Source of the DNA: Theocolax elegans
Lineage: Eukaryota; Arthropoda; Insecta; Hymenoptera; Cerocephalidae
Length of the DNA stretch: 64,000 nucleotides
Reading direction: 5' to 3'
Assembly (NCBI GenBank): GCA_026168455.1
Contig: CM047426.1
Coordinates: 69,536,916-69,600,915 of the forward strand
This document shows positions 13,101 to 64,000 of this stretch, piece by piece. Below the pieces are notes generated by a model that searched no databases, was not told the origin of the DNA, and saw only the letters and a program-made list of their open reading frames with translations. How positions within the stretch are numbered: position 1 is the stretch's first letter; each line of letters opens with the position of its first letter. The position numbers were made by a program, and so were the translations under genes.

Positions 13101-14944
13101 CACTTATAAGAAATCGATATTGCTTCTGAACTCACTACTCTTCATATTTATCATCAAGGCCATCTCTCTCCTAACTATATCTGTCATTAACATCTTCAAT
13201 TTCCTGACATTCCATAAACTCATCACAATCAAGAACTCTCGGAAACCATGGAAACCATGGATCATCCTGACTATTAAAAGCTTCATTAAATCTCGAAATA
13301 ATGCTTATAGAAAATTGGAATTGACTGGCCTAAGATCTGACTATTTCAATTACAAGAAATTACGCATTCTAGTCAAAAACTCCATAGACTCTAGGAAGTT
13401 CAATCATCTCAGCAATAAACACAATAGTATAACAGAACCATCCTCATCATGGAAAGAGCTCATGAAAATGGGGTGGACCTCACAACCCAATCCATCTCCC
13501 ATAAATATCTTCTCAACAGACCAGCTAGATCCTCAAAAAATTTATTCATGACCAACTTACATTATCTTGAGAAAAATGACAATCATCAAGCGGCCTTATT
13601 AGTTGTATTGGATGACATCAGGTGAGCTACTAACAATAGAAAAATTACCATCTTTGTCCTATTCGATTTTCGTAAAGCCTTTGATTCAGTACCTCTTGGC
13701 CCTCCCTTAATCAAGCTGAGAAAAATAGGATGCTCGGATGTAGTCTTGTGCTGGTTCTATCAATATCTTATGAATCATTCACATACCGTAGCGGACGAAA
13801 CTGCGACACTGTCACACTGGCTTGGTACCTTCAGGGGTACCCCTTAAGGTAGCGTTTTTGGTCCGTTGTTCTTTTCAATAGTTATAAATGACTTGCAATT
13901 AGTTCTACAATACTCGAACTATATGATTTTCACGGACGACACACAGGTTTATCACTTGTTTTATCCTACTAAATTCGATTTACGGGTGTCCAACGTATAA
14001 GTAAAGATGCGAACGCTGTAGAAAATTGGGCTAAAAATAATGGCCTCAAATTAAAGCAATAAAACCTAAGTGATAAACCTGGGTAGTCGGGCTTTCATCT
14101 TGCGTATCATCGGGAACGCTGCCTTGAGGGTAAAAATAGGAAATGAGCTTGTAAAATCCCTTGGTGTCTAGATTACACTCACTCTCTACTGGTCGAGACA
14201 AGTGGCAGTTATTTCTCAGATAGTTTACAAAACACCTTTTTTGCTCAAATATTGCAGACAATCGTTTTCTCGAGAATCGCGTAAGAGACTATTCGAAGCC
14301 CAAATTTTTCCAACCTTTGACTATGCTTGTGCGGTCTATAATAATGTTGATGCAACCAGGAATCTGAAACTTAGTCGATTGCTGAATACGTGTGTTAGAT
14401 TCGTATAGGGCAACATACCTAGAAAGGCTCACGTAACTCGGTCGGTCGAGCTCAGAAGGGCTTTATTCATTGCCACCACTGCATTTAATATCATCCTCTG
14501 TTTCAATTCATCGTAATATCTTGCACAACATTTCACATTACCTACGAAATTCATGTTCAACTCGCGTAACTGCTCGCCATCCTCCCTCGTCCTTAACTTA
14601 CCTCCTACAGAGCGCAAAAGCCCTAAATCAATCATTCGTTATCACCGCCACTTGCCTTATATATCATCTTCCATTTATAGATTTCAATCTTCTCGCACAT
14701 AATTCATTCAAAGCCAATCTCCTAATATACCTAATTGAGCTCGGTCGTTAAGCTTAATAGTACAGAGTCACCACAGAGGTACTGAGCTGTCCCCCTTTAC
14801 CCGAACTGTAATTACCAGTACTATCTGCTCTGTCTGTGTAGCTCTTATTTGACGTTTCTTAATGTATTTATTCTTATTATTTTGTATATAACTATTTATT
14901 TATTTATAATTTGCGTTTTATATTGTGTTTGTAATTTTATATTT
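13101..14944 (+). mobile_element. LINE ORF2 remnant with reverse transcriptase
   Basis: The frame at 13,036-13,551 carries a linker typical of I/Jockey/R1-group LINEs (PWIILTIKSFIKSRNNAYRK, then YKKLRILVKNSIDSRKFNHL). RT motifs follow in other frames: FDFRKAFDSVP at about 13,662-13,694, GSVFGPLFF near 13,850 and an FTDD-type catalytic box at about 13,929-13,940, where FADD is usual. RLFEAQIFPTFDYACAVYNN and later segments give the RT thumb and C-terminal region. Multiple stops (one inside the GTP-GSVFGP block) make this copy dead. The TTTATTTATTTATAA-like tail is split by the solo LTR at 14,945. Confidence 0.85.
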
Positions 14945-19800: not shown

Positions 19801-22200
19801 AACAATTTATATATAGACTCTATACCTTTATTGCTTGATTTCGACTGCTCGCTTTTATTATTTTTCTTATTACTTGAAGCTTCGGGCGATTTCGTATTGC
19901 TATTATTGTTAGAACATGCGGTTTGTAAATGCCCTTGCTTCCCAATTAACGTACTTTTCCGAATAAAGAATTCTTAAAATTCTCTTTTATATCCGTTCAT
20001 ATAGAATACTTATAAATTTTTTAAAGTTTACTCTAAGTTTGTATATTTAAAAATATGATATTTTTTATGAATTAAATGTGATGTGCAAGTAGACTATGAA
20101 CTTACTGCAAATTAATTCTCAGAATCAAAATTAAAAAATATTTTTTATATGTGGAAGAAAATAATCTTCAAGTGTACTATAAGGTTCCTTGAATTTTATT
20201 TATGTGTTAAAAGATAAAAAATGTTTTCATAGCACATATAATGTAATCTAATAGTGTACGGAAAAACTATTACAATTTTATTTGAAATGTCAGAGTTGGC
20301 ACATTTTTGAATTGGCATAAAAATACGTATTATTTTGGAAATTAACATTATTTAATTACATTATTATTAATTATAATTTAAATATATTATTATAATTATT
20401 ATTAATTATAATAATTACATCCAGAAGATGAACATAAAAAACTATGAATAACCTATCAATACGCTACTATAACACTGTGGGTAAAGGATCAATACAAAGT
20501 CCTTTCTCGACTACACGCTTGTTCTATTTGTGTTGGTAGAGTTCAAGCAAGTATGAATAAAGGGTAAACGTGAATGAGACAATTTAATTGGGATCAAATA
20601 AAATAGAAGCCAGGAGGTTAATCAGTTTAGTGGAGGAGATGGTAAAGGATGCGTTATAGGATTTAGTGCGAGGAGAATGATACGTGAGGGATTTAGAGCA
20701 AAAACGGGATCAGGTATATTTTGATGGGAAAAAAGTGATAAGAGTGAGGTGTTTAGCGAAGTATGATTGCCATGAGTGTGCAATGACATCATATGCTAAT
20801 GAAGTCATCAGGAAGATGCATCTAGACTCGACCGAAAGCCAACCCAAGCCCGTCTAAAAGGCGTGACATGCCTCGAAATGTTTCCCTAAACAAAACATAC
20901 GCAGATATTCAAGAGGAATCTTGAAGAGAAAGAGAGAGAGTATTTTTATTGGACTACAAGGGATGGAGAACTCGGGGGCACTAATTTTTTAAAAAATTGC
21001 AATTGCAATAATACTCCTTTTCAAAATGTATACAATAAATGTAACCGACAGATACTTTTTTTAAGTAAAAGTATTGGTAGTAAGTATCTAATTTTTACTT
21101 TCATTGCAATTTTAACACAAGTATCCGTTTCTTTTGAGCATCCAGATACTTCTCAGGCTCTGCTTAAAACTATGTAAAAAATTAGTAATATATGAACGCA
21201 AATAAGATAAAAAGCGGTAAAGTATAATTAAATAAAACAGAAATGTTACAATAATATATCTGAAAATTAATTGAACATACGCTACATTGTGCAAAAAATA
21301 ATATGAGGTACAGGGAGATACAAAAATATCTACGGATCTCCGCAACATACGCACGATTCAAGAGAGATAGTTTGAATGTGTTGTAGGAATTAGGATTAAA
21401 TGCGATGAAATGTAGGAAATTAATGATACGAACAGCGTTGTTAAGAAATGATTTATTAAAGGCCTCAGTGCACGAAGGAAGGTAAGTGAGGAATTTTCCA
21501 TATGGGAGAGTGACGGGAAGATGACGGGGAATAATCTTGAAGTAGACAAAGAAGTTGTTTTAAAACAGTGTTTAACAAGGTAATGAGGTGAATTATGAGA
21601 TATTAGTTAACCCAGCCTTAACTGCTTGGTGTTAGTATATTTCGTAAAAAGTGCGTAAAAAGTTACAACCGTTTGTAGTAAAAAAGACAATGTTCGGCGG
21701 AGTCAGACCAAGTGTTTTTTGTCACACAAGGTTGGGACTTTATAACGCACGTGTTAAGAACGATATTTTTCGATACAGTATACCGAAAATTGCATTTGAA
21801 AAAATATAAACAATGCGTAAAATGCGAATTTACGCATACTATATTGAGTCCTCGCCGATCATAAGGATTGAAGCCAGTCTTCTTCTAATCATGTTCTAAG
21901 CTATCGGTAACACGTGGTCGGTTCGCGGAGTCGAGTTAGCTTCCTCCTAACGTGCACTCACGCAATCAATCTCTAGATCGAATTAATATTTATCGTACAT
22001 ATACACACACGCACATATACATAATTCACACCTTAACATAATATATCTAATTTGATTAACAGTTTGTAATTCAAGGGGTTTTTATGCCGCGAGGCATTTC
22101 TCCTTTTGAGCCAAATAAATTGATATTTAATGGCTCAATTGAATGTGTTTTAATTATAACCTCTTTTCCTTCATAGTATTTCATAACCTTTAAATTTTCA
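19801..22200. other. AT-rich DNA without an identifiable gene
   Basis: Small minus-strand frames (21,112-21,354; 21,358-21,549) are leucine- and serine-rich with no motif I can place. A GA run lies near 20,930-20,940 and a GC-richer patch near 21,840-22,000, followed by a CACACACGCACATATAC stretch. Possibly decayed retroelement tails. No call is made. Confidence 0.4.
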
Positions 22201-22507
22201 TAAAAAAACTATAAATATATAAAATTTTGAACTATGAAAAAGATATTTAAAAATTACAATACAAGTTTATTTTACATCTCCACTTATGGGGTTATATTGA
22301 ACAATACGATCATACAATATTAGACAGTAAGCAGCAGTTCCGCAAATTCAGCAGTGCAAATTCGAGTTTTTTTTAAAGCAATCGATAACAAGTAGTGGTG
22401 CAAGTATTATAAATTTATTTTTATTTATTAATGGGTTTATAATATTATATTTGTTATAATCATAAGCACATTGAAATTGAACATACATATCATACAAAAA
22501 ATCATAC

Positions 22508-23345
22508 CTAAATATGTGATATATCAAAATTTAAATTTTCATTTGGGTAGAACAGTAAATTGAAAATTAACTGTCTATTTGTAATGTTATATTGATTGAA
22601 ATGTCTAGCATTTCTTGAATGTAAATTTGTTCTATTAGTTTGAAAGCTAACAATAATAAATCTAGGTTTTTCTAGTTGATTAGATGTTTTACAGATCAAA
22701 TGTTGTGATGTTGTTGGAATCATTGAATATTTATAAAGCTCCCAAGACCGAATACTTATAGCGACGGGTATATATTTTCTAATGTAATTAAATAACTATA
22801 TCAGACGTTAGTCTGACATTATCTTGAATGATTCATAAAAATTTCTATCATTCTCTTTAAAAGACTGTTGTACAACGGCATTCAAATCAGTTATTAGTTT
22901 CGTTTCTTTAACATCAATCCATCTAGCATTTTCCAAAAATTCAAGTAGCTTTATTAAGAAGGGTAGTATAAGATGATACTTCCATCAGCTTTTATTATTT
23001 TTCCATAAATATGTAATAAACTTTTTGATAGTAATAGGCATAAATCTTGATGTTGTATTAATATACGAATCACATTACTATTATTCAATGTTAATGAAGT
23101 ATAAGGTTACTGCACTACCTCTTGATGAGCTATCAATTCATCAAAGATAACCAATGTATGCACATTTAGTATTTCCTCCATTTTTTCTAGGACAGCAGCA
23201 TCAAATCAAAATACAAGTTATTTTCTGTTGTTTAGTATTTATTTTTGGTTGGTAATGGCTCTGAGACCTAAGCTTCTTAGAAACTGAATGTGATTTTGTG
23301 TTAATTTGTTAATTGTCTAAGAGCAATTCATCGTCTGACGGCATG
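22508..23345 (-). pseudogene. Double-jelly-roll capsid-like protein, decayed
   Basis: Minus-strand frames carry, in order, HIQFLRSLGLRAI (about 23,300), SIQHQDLCLL and IYGKIIKADGSI (about 23,050-22,980), WIDVKETKLITDLN (about 22,920) and an intact C-terminal piece (22,723-22,508) with CKTSNQLEKPRFIIVSFQT and FNQYNITNRQLIFN. These are hallmarks of the double-jelly-roll-like capsid family carried by Polinton/adintovirus-like elements and by many insect genomes. Several frameshifts, stops and an internal deletion are present, so no full protein is possible. It lies downstream of the other virion-type genes on the same strand. Confidence 0.75.
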
Positions 23346-23399
23346 GTAGTACATTAATATATACTCTATCAATCTTAGCATTAAAAATATTACTCATTA

Positions 23400-23937
23400 T
23401 GTAACTTTTTAAATGTATGCGAATAGTAATGACTTCACCGCAAAGATTTATCAAATCTTCATCTTGATCAACTGTACGTAAGTGTAAATAGTCAATAACT
23501 TTGACAGATATAGGTAAGTATATAATTTCTTTAGGAACATCAATAATTTTATATCTTGGTGGTTCAGCAGGAACAAATTCATAAATTGATTTTGATTTAT
23601 GTAACCTCCTGAAGATCTATTACATTCAACTCGTAGAGCATTTACTTTTAGAATGGTTACTGGCAAATCAGATGTACGACTGATATAAGGTTGTAAGAAG
23701 CGTTCTGTAAATCCTAGGAGACGACCAATAGAATCATGCTCATCAATACTGTATAACGTGTTATTTGGTTTGATACTAATTTTTATATCTCTTAATTTGA
23801 GAATGTTTGTTAATGCTTTTACAAGATCCTCAATTTCGTAACTTCCTGTAGCTAGTTCAATTACTTTATTTCTAATGTAAAATATATTATGTCCGTAATG
23901 AATATTCGGAATAGAGTTTAACTTTAGTAATACAACA
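23400..23937 (-). pseudogene. Virion-associated protein of the viral element, main part
   Basis: The minus-strand frame contains NSIPNIHYGHNIFY, VIELATGSYEIEDLVKAL, SIGRLLGF, TSDLPVTILKVNALRVECN and, after a frameshift near 23,580, VIYLPISVKVI and ITIRIHLKS. I recognise these as a conserved protein that neighbours the double-jelly-roll gene in insect viral elements; its exact role (penton, hexon partner or fibre) I cannot state. The 5' end continues across the solo LTR at 25,021-25,090. Frameshifts make it a pseudogene. Confidence 0.7.
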
Positions 23938-25020
23938 TGTGACGTGGTATTCGCGAATCCGGTATAATTAATTATTATTAATAATTAAAATTGACCGTTG
24001 GGCCGCGTTGCCCAATACCGCGTACACAATTATTTAATTTATCCGAACTGCGGGCTGTCGCCAGGAACGCGAGTTCGCTGGGACGTACGGTATGGAGGAT
24101 TCGGGCGATCCTCCTTGCCTCGACACGAATTATAAATTTAAAGGATGTCGGCGGGAGCGGGGAGAATAAAATAAACACACTCAGTTAAAATAAAAATAAA
24201 AATAAAAGAACATTTATTTTAATATTAATTAACATTGGCCATCCAGGCCGTGTGCCGCGACAAATATTGCTTCGCGCGGGCGGAAGTCCCGGGAAACCTG
24301 TCGGATCGAGATCCTCGCCTGCGACAGGTTTCGCTCCCAGGAACCGCTGTTCGAGTACCGTTGTACTCGAACACACTCCCGTGGTACGCACACACACAAG
24401 GGAGGGGGAGGGTCACGATAATAAATGTCACTTACCGGTGACGCTCCTCGGGGATGGCCCAGCCGATCCTCGGCGACTGGTCGACCTCCTTGACAAGGGG
24501 ACGACCGGTGGTTGAGGTGGTGAAGGCGGCCCTTGCCGCGGCGAGCGAGTCGCGATCCGCGGTATCACTCGCGCACGACCCCGTCCTTGATTCACACACT
24601 CACACAAACACACACCAAACTGTACGGGACACGCGTGTGTCCACCCGGGTCTCCGCACTTAGCTCTGCTCCGGAACAACCGTTCACAGAGCTCGATGCAG
24701 GAGGGGGGTGGGGCGCACTCTCGGCTCTCACGAGTAGTACGCGATCACGGTCAAAACAATAATCCGTCTTGGTCGACGGATCATTACACACTGCTTAGGC
24801 GATCGCCTAATTTCCCGAAAAAGGGATGGAAGTGGGGAAACTCACACACTCTTTCACGCTCCCATCCCTACGTATAGTCGCGCGCGTAATTGTACACTCG
24901 TAGAAAAGTAAACAAGTGTCGTCGGTTGGCCTTGACATACGAAAGGCTCCGACGACTTACAATTCGCGAATTTAAGTACTCTATTCGTCGTGAATAGATT
25001 GTGTGACGATTTCCGTCACA
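23938..25020. mobile_element. Solo LTR with AACA target duplication, inside viral gene
   Basis: Begins TGTGACGTGG and ends TTCCGTCACA, giving a 7-bp terminal inverted repeat with TG...CA ends. The flanks are AACA at 23,934-23,937 and AACA at 25,021-25,024. It is 1,083 bp, GC-rich inside an AT-rich host, and carries A/T-rich polyadenylation-like sequence near 24,185-24,230. It splits the minus-strand virion protein gene. Frames inside (for example 24,454-24,762) show no retroviral motif and are shadows of GC-rich DNA. Confidence 0.9.
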
Positions 25021-25095
25021 AACAAGACCTAAAATATAAATTTTCTCTGGTCCATTTCAATGGTAGGATATAATGAGTTTCAGGCACTCAGAAGA
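25021..25095 (-). pseudogene. Virion-associated protein, 5' part beyond the LTR
   Basis: Reading the minus strand into the LTR site gives SLYPTIEMDQRKFIF and, one frame over, LGLV directly before the break, which fits the N-terminal end of the protein continuing at 23,937. A frameshift lies within this short stretch. Support comes from matching sense and order on both sides of the target duplication. Confidence 0.6.
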
Positions 25096-25101
25096 TGCCT
25101 G

Positions 25102-25107
<6 letters not shown>

Positions 25108-25187
<80 letters not shown>
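25108..25187. repeat. (GA)n microsatellite
   Basis: About 40 uninterrupted GA dinucleotides. It lies within or beside the minus-strand virion gene cluster and so interrupts it. Confidence 0.95.
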
Positions 25188-25190
<3 letters not shown>

Positions 25191-25399
25191 GTCATCTTTA
25201 TTGCTTTTATAGTACTAAAGTTAAATATGACAGTAACAACTATTTATAAATATGAAAATTATCTGAATAATTTAATAAATTTGCTAGAAATTTTAAGCAT
25301 AGATATCCGCAAACAAATGTTATATTCTTGATATTTTTTATAATTTTATTTAATTGTACTATTGTTATAATAATATTAATCAAATCTGTGGAAGTGATG

Positions 25400-25760
25400 T
25401 GGAAGTATTACTTTTATAATAGTTTTTTTCTGATATTTTTTCGTTTTAAGTATAAACCTTTTCCAGTAACTAAGGATTCCATACGTTGATTATGTCTACT
25501 TTGTTCTTCTATCTGTTTTTTGCAGCATTGGCAATATTTATATCATTAACTATGCCAGCAGCGTCGCCTCCTAATCAACCTTCTGCATTAAGACCTTCAT
25601 ATGTTGGAAGAAGAGCCGGTAAAAAGCCACCAGTTTCTGGAATTAGTACTCATAGTGAACTTACCTTACGTTTACCACTAGCTTTTTTTATCCTATCTTG
25701 TACAGCATCTAATGTTAATTAATTAGTATTTTTGAATTATTATCAGGCTTAACGTACTTA
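25400..25760 (-). pseudogene. Small virion protein with KGLYLK motif
   Basis: Minus strand: a hydrophobic, glycine-rich segment GGDAAGIVNDINIANAAKN (about 25,580-25,524) preceded by FLPALLPTYEGLNAEG, then HNQRMESLVTGKGLYLKRKN (about 25,492-25,433) just before a stop. The glycine/alanine block followed by a KGLYLK tail is typical of a small core or minor capsid protein that follows the phospholipase domain in related insect elements. There are stops and frame changes between blocks. The plus-strand frame at 25,486-25,722 is the shadow of this gene. Confidence 0.65.
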
Positions 25761-25764
25761 AATG

Positions 25765-25916
25765 CTGAATTATTTGACTTGTTTAAAGTATATACGTTCT
25801 AACCTCTTTCATAATTTTGTACACGGTCCGCACTGCTGATATTCTGGTATATGAAGTTCCACGGGTAGCTTGTTAATAATGTTATTTAGTACTCCTTTTC
25901 TTTTATGAACAATCAT
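25765..25916 (-). pseudogene. Phospholipase A2-like (parvovirus VP1-type) remnant
   Basis: From an ATG at 25,916 the minus strand reads VLNNIINKLPVELHIPEY and YQQCGPCTKL before a TGA, then KRLERIY in the same frame. The LP-ELHIP-YQ-CGP-TKL pattern is the calcium-binding-loop region of the secreted-type phospholipase A2 domain found at the N-terminus of parvovirus VP1 and in adintovirus-like proteins. The expected following HD catalytic helix (HDxAY) was not seen, so the domain is truncated. Its start lies about 70 bp from the start of the divergent ATPase gene. Confidence 0.6.
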
Positions 25917-25946
25917 TACATAGTCACGTATACACATGAGCTGGAT

Positions 25947-25958
25947 GGTATAAATACC
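25947..25958. promoter_or_regulatory. Bidirectional TATA element between divergent viral genes
   Basis: GGTATAAATACC has 5-bp mirrored arms, so each strand shows a TATA-type box (TATAAATA on plus, TATTTATA on minus). The plus-strand ATG at 25,985 and the minus-strand ATG at 25,916 lie about 27 and 31 bp from its two edges. Promoter function is inferred. Confidence 0.5.
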
Positions 25959-25984
25959 TCCTTCTATACTATCAGTTGTCAGTT

Positions 25985-26515
25985 ATGAATCAAACATTGA
26001 TAGTAATGGATTGCAAAGAACAACCACTTAAACTTCCACTAAGGAATTTTGATACTCTTACCGAAACGAAAGATCAAAATTTCAAACGACATAAAGATTT
26101 ATTAGTACATACTATTCGTGCAATATTTTGTGGTCCATCAAACGCTGGGAAAACTAATGCATTGTTAGCATTACTTATACGCCTCAATGGGGTAAAATTT
26201 AAAAAGATTTATATATCATCTAAATTTTTATACCAAAATAAATATAAGTGTCTTGAAAAACTTATTGAACTAATTGCCGGTATTAATTACTTACTTTGCA
26301 GTGATTAAGATCATGTTGCATCTCTTGATGATACAAAACCTAATTCAATTATAATATTCGATGATTTTGCATGTGAAAAGCAGGATAATATAAAGGCTTT
26401 CAATTTGTTATAAATATCGCATTGTTTTTTGAAGTAGTCTAGTTCTAGGTTGAAACTTTAGCAAGTTAGCATATGTGATTTTAATAAACAAATTGAGATC
26501 TTTCGGCAATGGTAA
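25985..26515 (+). pseudogene. A32/FtsK-HerA-type viral DNA packaging ATPase, decayed
   Basis: The frame opens at 25,985 (MNQTLIVMDC) and runs to a TAA at 26,306-26,308. Residues around 47-56 give the Walker A P-loop FCGPSNAGKTNALL. After the stop the same frame gives NSIIIFDDFACEKQDNIKAF, a Walker B hydrophobic stretch ending in DD, then a second stop near 26,413. This architecture is that of the packaging ATPase of Polintons, adintoviruses and large DNA viruses, which pumps genome into the capsid. The N-terminal third is undamaged. Homology beyond about 26,515 fades into AT-rich DNA. Confidence 0.8.
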
Positions 26516-26850
26516 AAGCATGTGAATTTATTATATGCAAATATAATTTACTTAAATTAAATTAAAAAATTACTAAAAAAATTATAATTGACATTGAAAC
26601 CTATTATATTGTATAACCACTTGAAAAGTTACTTGATATTACAGAAATATTTTCTCACCAATAAATGAAGCAACCGCTTATTTTTGAAAAATGAAGCAAG
26701 TATCAATTTAAAACCAAAACATGAAAAACAAGATAAAAAAATGTGATAGTGACAATGATTATAATGATTAACCTTTTAAGGACGGGACTGGTCGATATAT
26801 CGACCACTTTGGTATCATATTATTTTGGAATAGTTTCGGGTCTAATATTA
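26516..26850. other. AT-rich spacer
   Basis: No gene seen between the ATPase remnant and the BEL/Pao remnant. Confidence 0.5.
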
Positions 26851-27935
26851 TATGTTGAATACAAGAAACATCATTCTGAAAGTATATTTGACCTTGAGAG
26901 GAGATGCCTCGCGAATCGGCCATTCTTCCTGCCTTAACCAGTTGGCGCCTTCCCACCAGAGAGTGGACTCGTAAAGCCCTTGGATGTCCGTCCCTCGTGT
27001 TCCTAGATCGGCCAAGTTCTTGCTGGTGGGTACGTAGTGCTGCGTTGCTCCAGGAACGAGCTCGTGCACGTGCGCCACGTAGTCGTCGACGATGTTGCTT
27101 CCCGTCGATTCGGCAGAGTGCAGCCAGTGCAGGGCTACTTGGGAGTCGCTCCACAGGTGTCAGTCTGTCATCGGGATACCCAGGTGGCCTGCTACGAGGC
27201 GGAGTAGCTTGGCAGTGAGTAGCGCTGCTCTTAACTCGAGTCGGGTAATTGTCATTCTAGAAGAGGCTCGAGGTGAAGGGAGAAGACTCTTAATTGGCGA
27301 AAGCATTGTTTTGGCTCACAGGAGTCGTGTCGTGACGTTTTTGCTGTCGTGGTCGGAGATCCTGTAGTAGAGTGCAGTGGCCATGGCTCTTCGGCTCGCG
27401 TCGGCGAACGGATGTAGCTGGATTCTCCGTGCGCCAGAGTGTTAGATCCAGCGTGGAATGGCGATACACCTGACGCCATTTAGGTCACTCTAGAAAGCTG
27501 TCCATTTTCCAGCCCAAGTCTCGGGGACTTTGGTGTCCCAGTCCAGCTTCGCGCGTCATAGGTCTTGAATCAGCATCTTGGCGACTACACTGATTGGAGC
27601 CATTCATCCGCTGGGATCGAATATCCTGGCGAGTCCGGCGAGGATCGTCTTCTTGGTGAGCGTGGCCGTGGATGCGACAGTAGACGATATTAATCTGAAA
27701 CAATCCTGAATTGGATTCCAGGAGATCCCCAGTTCGTTATCTGACCGTCCGTTGAAAACTGGAGCCATGTTGGTCGGAGTCTGTCCTCGATTGGAATGTT
27801 CTCTAAGAGGTCGGGGCTGTTCGAGACCCATTTCTTGAGTGTGAGGCCACCTATCTTGAGAAGAGCGATTAGTTGATCGCGCCGGCGACGTGCTGATTGG
27901 CTCCTTCGTCCTGGTAAAGTTGCTTCAGCGTTTTT
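26851..27935 (-). mobile_element. BEL/Pao pol fragment (RT C-terminus to RNase H)
   Basis: The minus strand from about 27,935 reads RRDQLIALLKIGGLTLKKWV, IQFRI/ISWNPIQDCF, KKTILAGLARIFDPSGWMAP, LHPFADASRRAMATALYYR, SDSQVALHWLHS and HYVPTSKNLADLGTRG then STLWWEGANWL. This order (RT connection, RNase H with a DSQ motif, the ADL-RG-LWW-GP-WL end) is diagnostic of BEL/Pao Pol. Frames change several times and one stop lies near 27,480. Integrase and gag are absent, so the copy is truncated at both ends. Confidence 0.9.
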
Positions 27936-28413
27936 ATCGCAAAAACCCATCGTATCGCTACTAACATACATGAAAAACCCGGTGAACCTCACTACTAAAA
28001 CCGGTGATACTCTTACGTTTGACCAATTCTCGAATCACTAGTACAAAGAACACGATAAATAACGTTATTGCTTACCAAATTGGAGAAAATGCAATTAACA
28101 AAAAAGATAACAATATCGATAATAGCGATCTCTTCAACGATATATACGATTTTTATATACTTTAACCGGGATCTGATATTATACTCACTACGATACTCTT
28201 AACTCGAGATCTGATACTAGACTGACTATTTCTGGGAAAACACGCTCCGTAACCGAAAATTTGAATATTATCTATCTCTTTCCGACTGATTGTCCCGTTT
28301 CTCTGTCTCTCTCGCGCCACCTGCGGGAGATAAGTCATTATTTGACTTATCTCCATGTAATTACATGTCACAGGTGCCCCCTCCCACTGCCATATTCTCC
28401 CCACTGGTATCAA
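27936..28413. other. Unassigned sequence upstream of the Pao fragment
   Basis: Mixed composition, with a short inverted repeat near 28,325-28,370 (GATAAGTCA/TGACTTATC). No protein family recognised. Confidence 0.35.
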
Positions 28414-29237
28414 TGTTGACCATTAATACCATTAAAATTATTATAGAAAGCTTCGGTCGTTTTGACATCAATTATGGTAATATAAGCCAAAATTACCTGT
28501 CTCAGAACCGTAAGCATTCTATTGTCCCAACTATAAAGTCACTATTATACATATATCATATAAACATGATAAATGTTGATAATAGCACTATCTTACACAT
28601 CTCTTATCACATACAGTACGATATAATGGGAATTCACCCGTTCCGATTCGCGTTTCCATCTATATCGTATATGCTTCATGAATACGCGCGCCCTACTAAC
28701 GTATGTATTATCTATCCGCGCGCGCACCTGTTGATAATATGGCCGATCGGACTCGAGCGTGTAAACACGCCGGCACCGTTGCTCGTGTATCGGTCGTTTT
28801 CCGTCGCATCGCGCCCGAGTGATCCGCGAATAAGTGTGTGCGCGTGTTAATGTACGTGTAAGTGTAAGTGCGAAGTGCGCGCACCTCTTTCACCGGCCGG
28901 ACAACATCGCCAGCTTAACGACGGCTACCCCCACCAACGCTATCACGAGGGATACCGTGTACACAATAAAGGAATTATATATTATTAATTAATTCTATAT
29001 TAACATCTTTTTCTTTTACAAGTACCGTGGTTTTGGAGAACCTGACCACCCAGGGAACCTTTACCTTCGGTTAGCAGAGGAACCCGGAGCAGCCAACGAC
29101 TCATCGACTACAACCATCCGAAACAACAATAAGAAGTTCTCTCAGCAGGTAAATAATAGTTTTAATTATATTTATTATTAATAAATGATTATTAATCCCT
29201 TTTTATTATTGTTTCTGGTAACACAGTGATGGCAACA
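28414..29237. mobile_element. Possible BEL-like LTR (TGTTG...CAACA)
   Basis: Starts TGTTGACC and ends GGCAACA, with an AATAAA at about 28,967 and GC-rich promoter-like DNA near 28,630-28,930. Flanking 5-mers do not match, so the boundaries are uncertain. It lies 5' of the minus-strand Pao pol fragment and could be its LTR. Confidence 0.3.
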
Positions 29238-35607: not shown

Positions 35608-35640
35608 ACATTTATAATGCTGGATTTTCAATTTTACAAT

Positions 35641-36600
35641 CACATTCAGCCGGGGTTGATGACGCTATGAGTATATCGTCTAAATATGTAAATGTGAAGT
35701 CCAAATTTCCCAGTGCTGTGTGTATGTAGCGCTGAAAAGTTTGTGAAGCGTTACGTAGGCCAAATGTCATAGCAGGGAATTCGTATAACTCGAATGGAGT
35801 TATCACTGCTGTCTTTTGAATATCTTCTGGTGCTACGGCAATTTGGTGAAATGCTTGTCTGACGTCCAGAGCTGAGAAAATTTTTTTATTGTTTAAAAAT
35901 ACTGTAAAGTCGTGGATGTGAGGAACTGGATAGCTGTCCGGAATTGTGATAGAATTTAGACGTCTGTAGTCTCCACAAATCCTGCATTCTCCATTTTTTT
36001 TGGCTACCATATGTATTGGGCTAGCCCAAGGACTTTTCGACGGTCTGCAAATACCATTCTCACACATTTTCTTGAATTCTGATTTCGCCACCTTTAGTTT
36101 TTCCGGATTAAGGCGACGTGCTCTCTGTGCAATAGGTGGTCCATTTGTGCAAATATAGTGATAGGAATCCTTGTTTTGTAGCGGTGTGATCTGCTCAGCT
36201 CCGAAGACTCTGGGAAACTTTTGTATTATGTGCGAGTACTTGTGTTGTGCATCAAGTAGCGAAATTTGTTCGAGATTTGAATGTTTCATAAATCCGGTAG
36301 TGGCACATTGGATATTGCCGTCAATCTGTCTTAGTTTATGTAAATCAGGCAATAAATGATACCGTAGTAAGAAGTCCGCGCCTATGATGGCGTATGGTAC
36401 ATCCGCTACGATGAAATTCCATATAGGCTTGTAAGGTAATCCGATATCCAATTGTAGGTTATGTGTGCCAAAAGTTTTTATTTCCGATCCATTGACTGCA
36501 TGTAGCATGAGGTTTGTTGCTTGAAGCGGCCAGTTGTCTGGTTTTGGAATGATAGAGAGACATGCTCCCGTGTCAATTAAAAATGTTATTTTGAAAATTT
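35641..36600 (-). pseudogene. Ty3/gypsy protease and reverse transcriptase, 3'-truncated
   Basis: The minus strand starts with FLIDTGACLSIIPK (aspartic protease DTGA, about 36,575) and a long open frame from 36,508 follows. It contains FIVADVPYAIIGADFLLRYH (protease flap region), then the RT: MVAKKNGECRICGDYRRLN, SALDVRQAFHQIAV, MTFGLRNASQTFQRYI and the catalytic box TYLDDILIAS near 35,680-35,660. The frame is undamaged up to that point and then runs into a 40-bp piece of the foldback family at 35,640, losing the RT thumb, RNase H, integrase and 3' LTR. RT without these parts cannot support transposition. Confidence 0.9.
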
Positions 36601-53087: not shown

Positions 53088-53827
<740 letters not shown>

Positions 53828-61926: not shown

Positions 61927-62690
61927 ATGAATGATACGATAATTAAATGTATGGAGTCGAAATGTAAATTTCTTTCTACATATTTCTTGGTTCCAAAACC
62001 TGACGGTTCCTTTCGATTTATTTTAAATTTGAAAAAACTAAATAAGTTTATTAAAAAAGTATATTTTAAATTAGAAGATTTAAGGGTTGCCACCAAGCTT
62101 GTATCAAAATCGTCATGCATGATTTCGTTGGATTTGCAGGATGCATAATTTTTGGTTCCGGTTAGTACAAAGAGTCAAAAATTTCTTGGCTTTAAATATA
62201 ACAAACAATGCTATCAGTTTAAATGTTTACCTTTTGGCTTGTCTACTAGCCCATATGTTTTTACAAAATTAATGAAACCGATAGTTAAATATTTAAGATT
62301 TGAGGGCTTTTTAATTGTAATGTATTTGGATGATATGTTGGTTATAGCAAATAGTTATGTAAAATGTTTGAATGATGCATTGTCTATCGTAAATTTTCTT
62401 CAACACCTAGGTTTTGTAATCAATTTTAAAAAATCAAAGTTAATACCAAGGACGTTTTGTAAATTTTTGGGTTTTATTGTAAATTCAACCAATAGTACTC
62501 TTGTTTTGCCTAAAAATAAAAAAGAAAAATTATTACTAATATTAGTTGAATTTTTAGAAAAAAGTTGTTGTAAAATTGTTGAATTTGCTCGGTTAATAGG
62601 TAGCTTAGTAGCAGCTTGTCCAGCTGCTACTAAGCTACCTATTAACATACGGGTGGTTATATATCAAAATAATGGAAATGGATAAATTGA
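61927..62690 (+). pseudogene. DIRS-type reverse transcriptase
   Basis: YFLVPKPDGSFRFILNLKKL, SCMISLDLQDA, a TAA where Tyr is expected (62,146-62,148), FKCLPFGLSTSPYVFTKL and the catalytic VMYLDDMLVI (about 62,317-62,346). The thumb region HLGFVINFKKSKLIP and FCKFLGFIV follows. The order and wording match DIRS-like RT, which reverse-transcribes through a circular intermediate. Near 62,593-62,645 a perfect inverted duplication ends the frame, and the conserved GWLY block resumes one frame over. Confidence 0.9.
62591..62647. repeat. Perfect 24-bp-arm hairpin inside the RT frame
   Basis: The arm at 62,593-62,616 equals the reverse complement of 62,622-62,645 exactly, with loop TGTCC. The second arm is extra sequence relative to the expected RT order. 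Confidence 0.95.
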
Positions 62691-63486
62691 AGGCTTTAAC
62701 TTGTTCAAAAGAAAATTTTTATAGCAAAATGGTTATATCAGATAAATCAAAATCAGACATCAGGTGGTGGATAGCCCATATACCTAATAGCAGTTTGTTT
62801 TATAGTCAAATGGAATATGCAAGAGTCAATTATACAGATGCTTCTAAGCTTAGTTGGGGTGCCACTGATGGTAGTTCTAAAGTTTTTGGTTCATGGAAAG
62901 AATCTCAATTTAATTTTCACATAAACTATAAAGAACTTTTAACTGTTAAACTAGGCCTAGAAGGATTACTTACATAAACAAGATGGGAGGTGTCAGGTTT
63001 GAAAAATATAATAGGTTAGCTACATCTACTTGGCAGTGGGCAGAGAATAAAAATATTTACCTCCGGGCCTCATATATTCCGTCTGTAGAAAATAAGCAGG
63101 CTGACAAATTGTCAAGAATTATAAACCCAGATTCAGAATGGGAGATTTCTCAAGCAGCATTTATAGAGATTTGTAAGACTTTTGGAGTACCAGAGGTAGA
63201 TATTTTTGCCTCTGCAAGAAATAAAAAATGCAAAAATTATTTTTCCTGGCTACCTGACCCTAATGCTCTAGAGATAGATGCATTTACGGTTTCTTGGAAG
63301 CACTTATACTTCTACGCTTTTCCTTCTTTTGTTTTAATTACGAAAACTTTGGAAAAAATTATTCAGGAGGAATCTAGAGGGATTTTAGTTGTACCGGCGT
63401 GGTACAGTCAACCCTGGTATCCTCTTTTTGTAAAACTAGTTGTAGGTAATGTTTTAAAATTTAAACCTATGGAACATTTTTTGTGA
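62672..63486 (+). pseudogene. DIRS RNase H and connecting domain
   Basis: The frame at 62,672-62,977 carries VNYTDASKLSWGATDG and HINYKELLTVKLGLEGL, an RNase H with its D (TDAS) and E (KELL) residues. After a frameshift, 62,983-63,486 continues with YIPSVENKQADKLSR, PEVDIFASARNKKCKNYFSW, DAFTVSWKHLYFYAFP and VVPAWYSQPWYP. This downstream part is characteristic of DIRS-like Pol between RNase H and the methylase/recombinase region. Confidence 0.85.
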
Positions 63487-64000
63487 TAACAAACATGCAG
63501 ATCTGTTTAATCCTAATGAATGTAATGTGATTGAATTTCTATCTAGTCGTTTCTCAAAGGGTAGTTCATATGGTAGTTTAAATAATGATATGTGCGCAAT
63601 ATCTTTAATATCGAATAATAAGATAGGCGAAAATGTATTAGTTAAACGCTTTTTAAAAGGGTTGTTATAAATTGCGTCCAACGAAAGCTAAATATTTTTA
63701 TACTTGGGACATTAATACTGTATTAGACTTTTTAGAAAATTTAGGTGACAATAAAGTATTATCCATGGAGGAATTAAGTTATAAAACGCTAGTTCTTTTA
63801 TCATTAGGTACTGCACAAAGAAAGCAGCCGCTATCAAAAATAAGGATGGAAAATATCATTTTTAATGCTGATAAAGTGGAAATTCTGATTACTGATTTAT
63901 TTAAGAATTCACGACCAGGGTTTAAGCAACCAGTTTTAATTATTCCAAAGCTTAATGAAAGACCTGGTGTTTGTATTTATCTAAGCATTAGAAATTATAT
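63487..64000 (+). pseudogene. DIRS tyrosine recombinase, cut by window end
   Basis: VIEFLSSRFSKGSSYGSLNN and VLVKRFLKGLL form a core-binding domain up to a TAA at about 63,668. One frame over, KYFYTWDINTVLDFLENLG and LLSLGTAQRKQPLSKI lead into the catalytic domain, including the first conserved Arg (QRKQPL). The His-x-x-Arg and Tyr nucleophile would lie beyond 64,000. A tyrosine recombinase in place of an integrase is the DIRS hallmark. Confidence 0.8.

Follow-up and report, generated by a model that had tools for sequence, protein, structure and literature searches.

Maverick/Polinton elements are reported to be abundant in wasp genomes (PMC6035795), and integrations derived from an adintovirus integrase are described as common in Ixodes ticks (PMC10675110). 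In intact relatives, as the literature presents them, a retrovirus-like integrase would insert the linear DNA, a PolB would copy it (protein priming has been suggested), and an A32-type ATPase would pack it into a shell made of a double-jelly-roll (DJR) capsid protein and a penton. By analogy with parvoviruses, the protein bearing a phospholipase A2 (PLA2) in these relatives probably aids entry. A further described system is the Polinton P-9_NVi, where we take NVi to stand for Nasonia vitripennis. According to its description, the penton gene of P-9_NVi lies directly upstream of the capsid gene (PMC4028283), and the Spodoptera Mavericks are described as encoding a protein of 258 residues whose N-terminal domain is a PLA2 (PMC5803895). 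Figure 1 of PMC3671162 compares elements that include fragments from T. castaneum and A. pisum and that share PolB, integrase, protease and ATPase as the Polinton core; the gene symbols in the legend of that figure include a parvovirus-type PLA2 whose bearer the legend leaves unstated, and a parvovirus is also figured.

The window analysed here (the whole stretch of 64,000 nucleotides from Theocolax elegans, with a G+C of 32%) contains at about 22262-26536 a set of broken coding pieces within AT-rich DNA, which we read, with a probability of roughly 0.92, as a germline copy, now truncated and dead, of an insect Maverick/Polinton of the type classed in Eupolintoviridae (formerly Adintoviridae). 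The original prediction of the wreck of an integrated Polinton/adintovirus-like virus at 22508..26515 was right in its location but not in its edges, the real extent being slightly larger. Its headline agrees with the best penton match, the Megastigmus wasp adintovirus, which NCBI places in Eupolintoviridae, and with the ATPase, penton and DJR capsid pieces adjoining one another, as seen in this window. Five virion modules had been named, of which the DJR protein, the ATPase and the penton are borne out by profile or homology, but the PLA2 and KGLYLK pieces are seen at motif level only; stops or frameshifts had been claimed for every gene, and broken frames are found in all three confirmed genes (ATPase, penton and capsid). 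Of the capsid and packaging half, no more than a part can be recognised in the window copy.

The packaging ATPase gene, of the FtsK/A32 type by which Eupolintoviridae are partly defined, was found on the plus strand at 26006..26536, as had been predicted from its Walker A and B motifs. The piece 25940-26410 (+) has 35 relatives (best E 1.1e-43, best identity 63%), 28 of them with the Pfam family Pox_A32, and Walker A and Walker B are retained in alignment A2, for which 21 of the 35 matches were used. Profiles for the ATPase, penton and capsid proteins were built without the window rows. The ATPase profile matches with iE 5.4e-51 (162 bits) over profile positions 1-178 of 233, and since the match stops at position 178 about the last quarter of the gene is lost; an in-frame stop is present at 26306-26308.

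What had been called a conserved capsid-associated protein, at 23404-23984 on the minus strand, is a penton, that is, the single-jelly-roll minor capsid protein that also belongs to the definition of Eupolintoviridae. For this piece 163 relatives were found and 120 listed, with a best E of 7.4e-36 among the matches listed; alignment A3 holds 20 of these and A4 holds 118 of the 120 listed. The main part of the gene, 23404..23937 (-), lies in two frames and covers profile positions 37-227 of 229, with matches at 23583-23936 (iE 5.5e-42, 133 bits) and 23404-23601 (iE 9.6e-28, 86 bits). In the penton tree the window piece clusters with P0051-P0058, the Megastigmus wasp adintovirus among them, with a support of 0.776; the 14-tip group has a support of 0.979 and the innermost group 0.0, and the branch of the window piece is 0.75 long. 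By identity, the sequence nearest to the window piece is P0160. A first structure model of the penton, built on 22 sequences, had a poor pLDDT of 63 and was set aside.

The penton gene is split by an insert of 1083 bp at 23938..25020, delimited by its terminal sequences (TGTGACG...CGTCACA) and by AACA at both flanks. Its G+C is 52% as against 28% and 30% in the two flanks, and a search of the window for a second copy found none. Because of its size, its TG...CA ends and its 4-base duplication the insert is probably a solo LTR; the AACA duplication belongs to this insert and not to the whole element. The copy was mutated, and another mobile element probably landed inside it. On the far side of the insert, 25021..25205 (-) is probably the N-terminal region of the penton gene. 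The profile matches it weakly: scanning the whole window gives iE 0.84, a search space fixed at 12 gives E 0.0014, and omitting the microsatellite tract raises this to 0.029. A piece reading PEKIYILGLV adjoins the insert in another frame, with a penton match of E 0.13-0.3. It may be noted that a (GA)39 microsatellite at 25109-25186 lies within the serine-leucine-rich start of this probable N-terminus, as if grown from the SLTLSLS codons of the probable penton.

The DJR major capsid protein, again a defining protein of Eupolintoviridae, is represented by a remnant at 22262..22978 (-), delimited by Pfam, profile and tblastn matches, with the last bases to 22262 read by eye; it ends near the C-terminus of the longest relatives found. 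The piece 22508-22795 (-) matches the double-jelly-roll-like family PF21738 with E 6.1e-17, and all 15 candidate relatives were confirmed (best E 2.6e-21), each of them with PF21738 and one named from the wasp Trichogramma kaykai; 13 of the 15 were used in alignment A1. With the 15 relatives tblastn covers 22270-22978 in two frames containing stops, and the capsid profile is significant at 22511-22822 (iE 3.3e-31, 97 bits) and 22354-22509 (iE 1.8e-8, 23 bits), so the predicted double-jelly-roll-like protein stands. The stretch 22979..23195 (-) is possibly the N-terminal part of the gene, judging from its position and from frames which resemble that part; the piece 22954-23106 gave no Pfam match. 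No match to the capsid piece was found in the phage collection. Just past the capsid gene, 22071-22208 (-) holds a coding-like ORF of 45 residues for which a Pfam search gave no match.

The piece at 25809..25982 (-) carries a loop-like CGP.TKL motif and resembles the calcium-loop end of a parvovirus-VP1-type PLA2. This motif has one occurrence in the six-frame window and 0 in 100 dinucleotide shuffles, the looser CGP.T.L occurring once in 100. KGLYLK, in 25414-25542, belongs with a preceding stretch to a two-frame piece at 25414..25722 (-), delimited by motif and position; the motif has a single occurrence in the window and 3 in 100 shuffles. Neither piece matched a Pfam family at a maximum E-value of 10 (HMMER filters drop most matches above 0.1), and between them 25543-25808 yielded Adeno_PX alone, at E 0.17 and spanning nine residues. 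Inspection by eye of the frames of the PLA2 region did not show the catalytic His-Asp motif of PLA2, and a DNA pattern for the loop motif returned 15 loci from IMG/VR, none of them PLA2-like by eye in the one frame translated for each. KGLYLK as a separate small protein is not upheld, since it perhaps shares a gene with the PLA2 piece. Because of their position and of the 258-residue PLA2-bearing CAP described for Spodoptera Mavericks (PMC5803895), the two pieces, about 570 bases from end to end, may represent one gene, in whose PLA2-bearing product the KGLYLK piece possibly forms the C-terminus. The place of both pieces fits the Spodoptera Mavericks as published in PMC5803895.

That neither PolB nor integrase is visible, as the original prediction had stated, was confirmed: six-frame Pfam scans of 11001-34000 in five stretches at E 0.1-0.5 gave no match for PolB, a retrovirus-like integrase or an adenovirus-like C5 protease in this truncated, decayed copy. 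This would also agree with a separate kind of capsid-bearing element, one lacking PolB and integrase and replicating otherwise, for example with the help of a relative. Against this, truncation is seen in the copy (the ATPase match stops at profile position 178 of 233), the insert splits it, the best named relative has an adintovirus name and lineage, and PMC5803895 describes PolB and integrase in the Spodoptera Mavericks that also carry an A32-like ATPase and a PLA2 protein. Truncation and decay mean that the missing genes say little on how the parent replicated; the suggested replication without PolB is not supported, and we consider such an element very improbable. We hold it equally improbable that the cassette came from a Maverick derivative which first lost PolB and integrase, was moved or packed through a complete relative, and decayed afterwards.

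The mobile-element domains of 11001-34000 other than PF21738 are those of retrotransposons, namely Peptidase_A17, RVT_1 and a weak RT_RNaseH_2. A BEL/Pao retrotransposon remnant lies at 27142-27657 (-) (Peptidase_A17, E 1.9e-36) and a reverse transcriptase domain at 13536-13961 (+) (RVT_1, E 4.8e-26). Elsewhere in the window, 35615-36598 (-) is a retrotransposon remnant with aspartyl protease (E 7.7e-7) and reverse transcriptase (E 1.2e-16), and at 62149-63998 RVT_1 (E 9.9e-17) precedes a match resembling Dam methylase that is below cut-off (E 2.2e-4), an order which recalls a DIRS-type retrotransposon. A Krr1 KH1 domain at 53483-53827 (-) (E 1.4e-12) is perhaps a host KRR1 exon or pseudogene.

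Since its frames are broken, the window copy is most likely without present function. Viral capsid genes domesticated by the host and decayed only recently would agree with the named matches, which include predicted proteins from the hymenopteran genomes of Trichogramma and Cephus, but the ATPase, penton and capsid genes are all broken here, the three sit together in a virus-like order and no sign of host use was seen, which leaves this reading a slighter chance still. Shuffling the window 20 times by dinucleotides gave best domain scores of 0.9 bits for the ATPase, -0.2 for the penton and 2.2 for the capsid profile, and no match of the three profiles was better than iE 0.5 in the rest of the window or iE 0.038 in the reversed window. 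Unrelated chance ORFs in AT-rich DNA are the least credible source of the cassette: 103 stop-to-stop ORFs of at least 40 residues overlap 20000-29000, and ORFs alone therefore carry little weight, but the profiles score 162, 133, 97 and 86 bits here, while shuffled windows reach 2.2 bits at best, and this refutes a chance origin for the ATPase, penton and capsid, the PLA2 and KGLYLK pieces apart. Searches of IMG/VR with single capsid, penton and ATPase pieces and with alignments A1, A2 and A3 confirmed no relative. The PDB sequences gave no match to the ATPase and capsid profiles at E 1 and only matches at E 0.44-0.93 to the single capsid and ATPase pieces, and PHROGs gave no match below E 0.016.

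With Mavericks abundant in wasps (PMC6035795) and adintovirus integrase-derived integrations common in Ixodes ticks (PMC10675110), the truncated Maverick/Polinton copy is one more dead copy of a known kind; it adds one fossil to a group reported as abundant in wasp genomes, looks ordinary and raises no fresh question. Its value for annotation is that none of the 120 listed penton matches carries a precomputed Pfam domain and that the broken ATPase piece 25940-26305 alone matches Pox_A32 with E 0.0023, under the curated cut-off.

Compared by its penton record only, the Megastigmus wasp adintovirus (Eupolintoviridae) has a penton 61% identical to the window piece, whereas the window copy is broken and has no match for PolB, integrase or protease. 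Spodoptera frugiperda Maverick 1 and 2 have in common with it an A32-like ATPase and a capsid-like protein bearing a PLA2; unlike the window copy, their description presents them as seemingly intact and as carrying PolB, integrase and protease, and it gives no homologue of the PY capsid protein (PMC5803895). By the same description, their eight small genes stand in tandem on one strand, whereas in the window the ATPase is opposite to the others (PMC5803895). The elements of Figure 1 in PMC3671162 resemble the window by description, in the ATPase of the Polinton core; a PLA2 symbol stands in the legend. Polinton P-9_NVi and other polintoviruses, likewise compared by description, have a DJR capsid protein and a penton, as in the window (PMC4028283).
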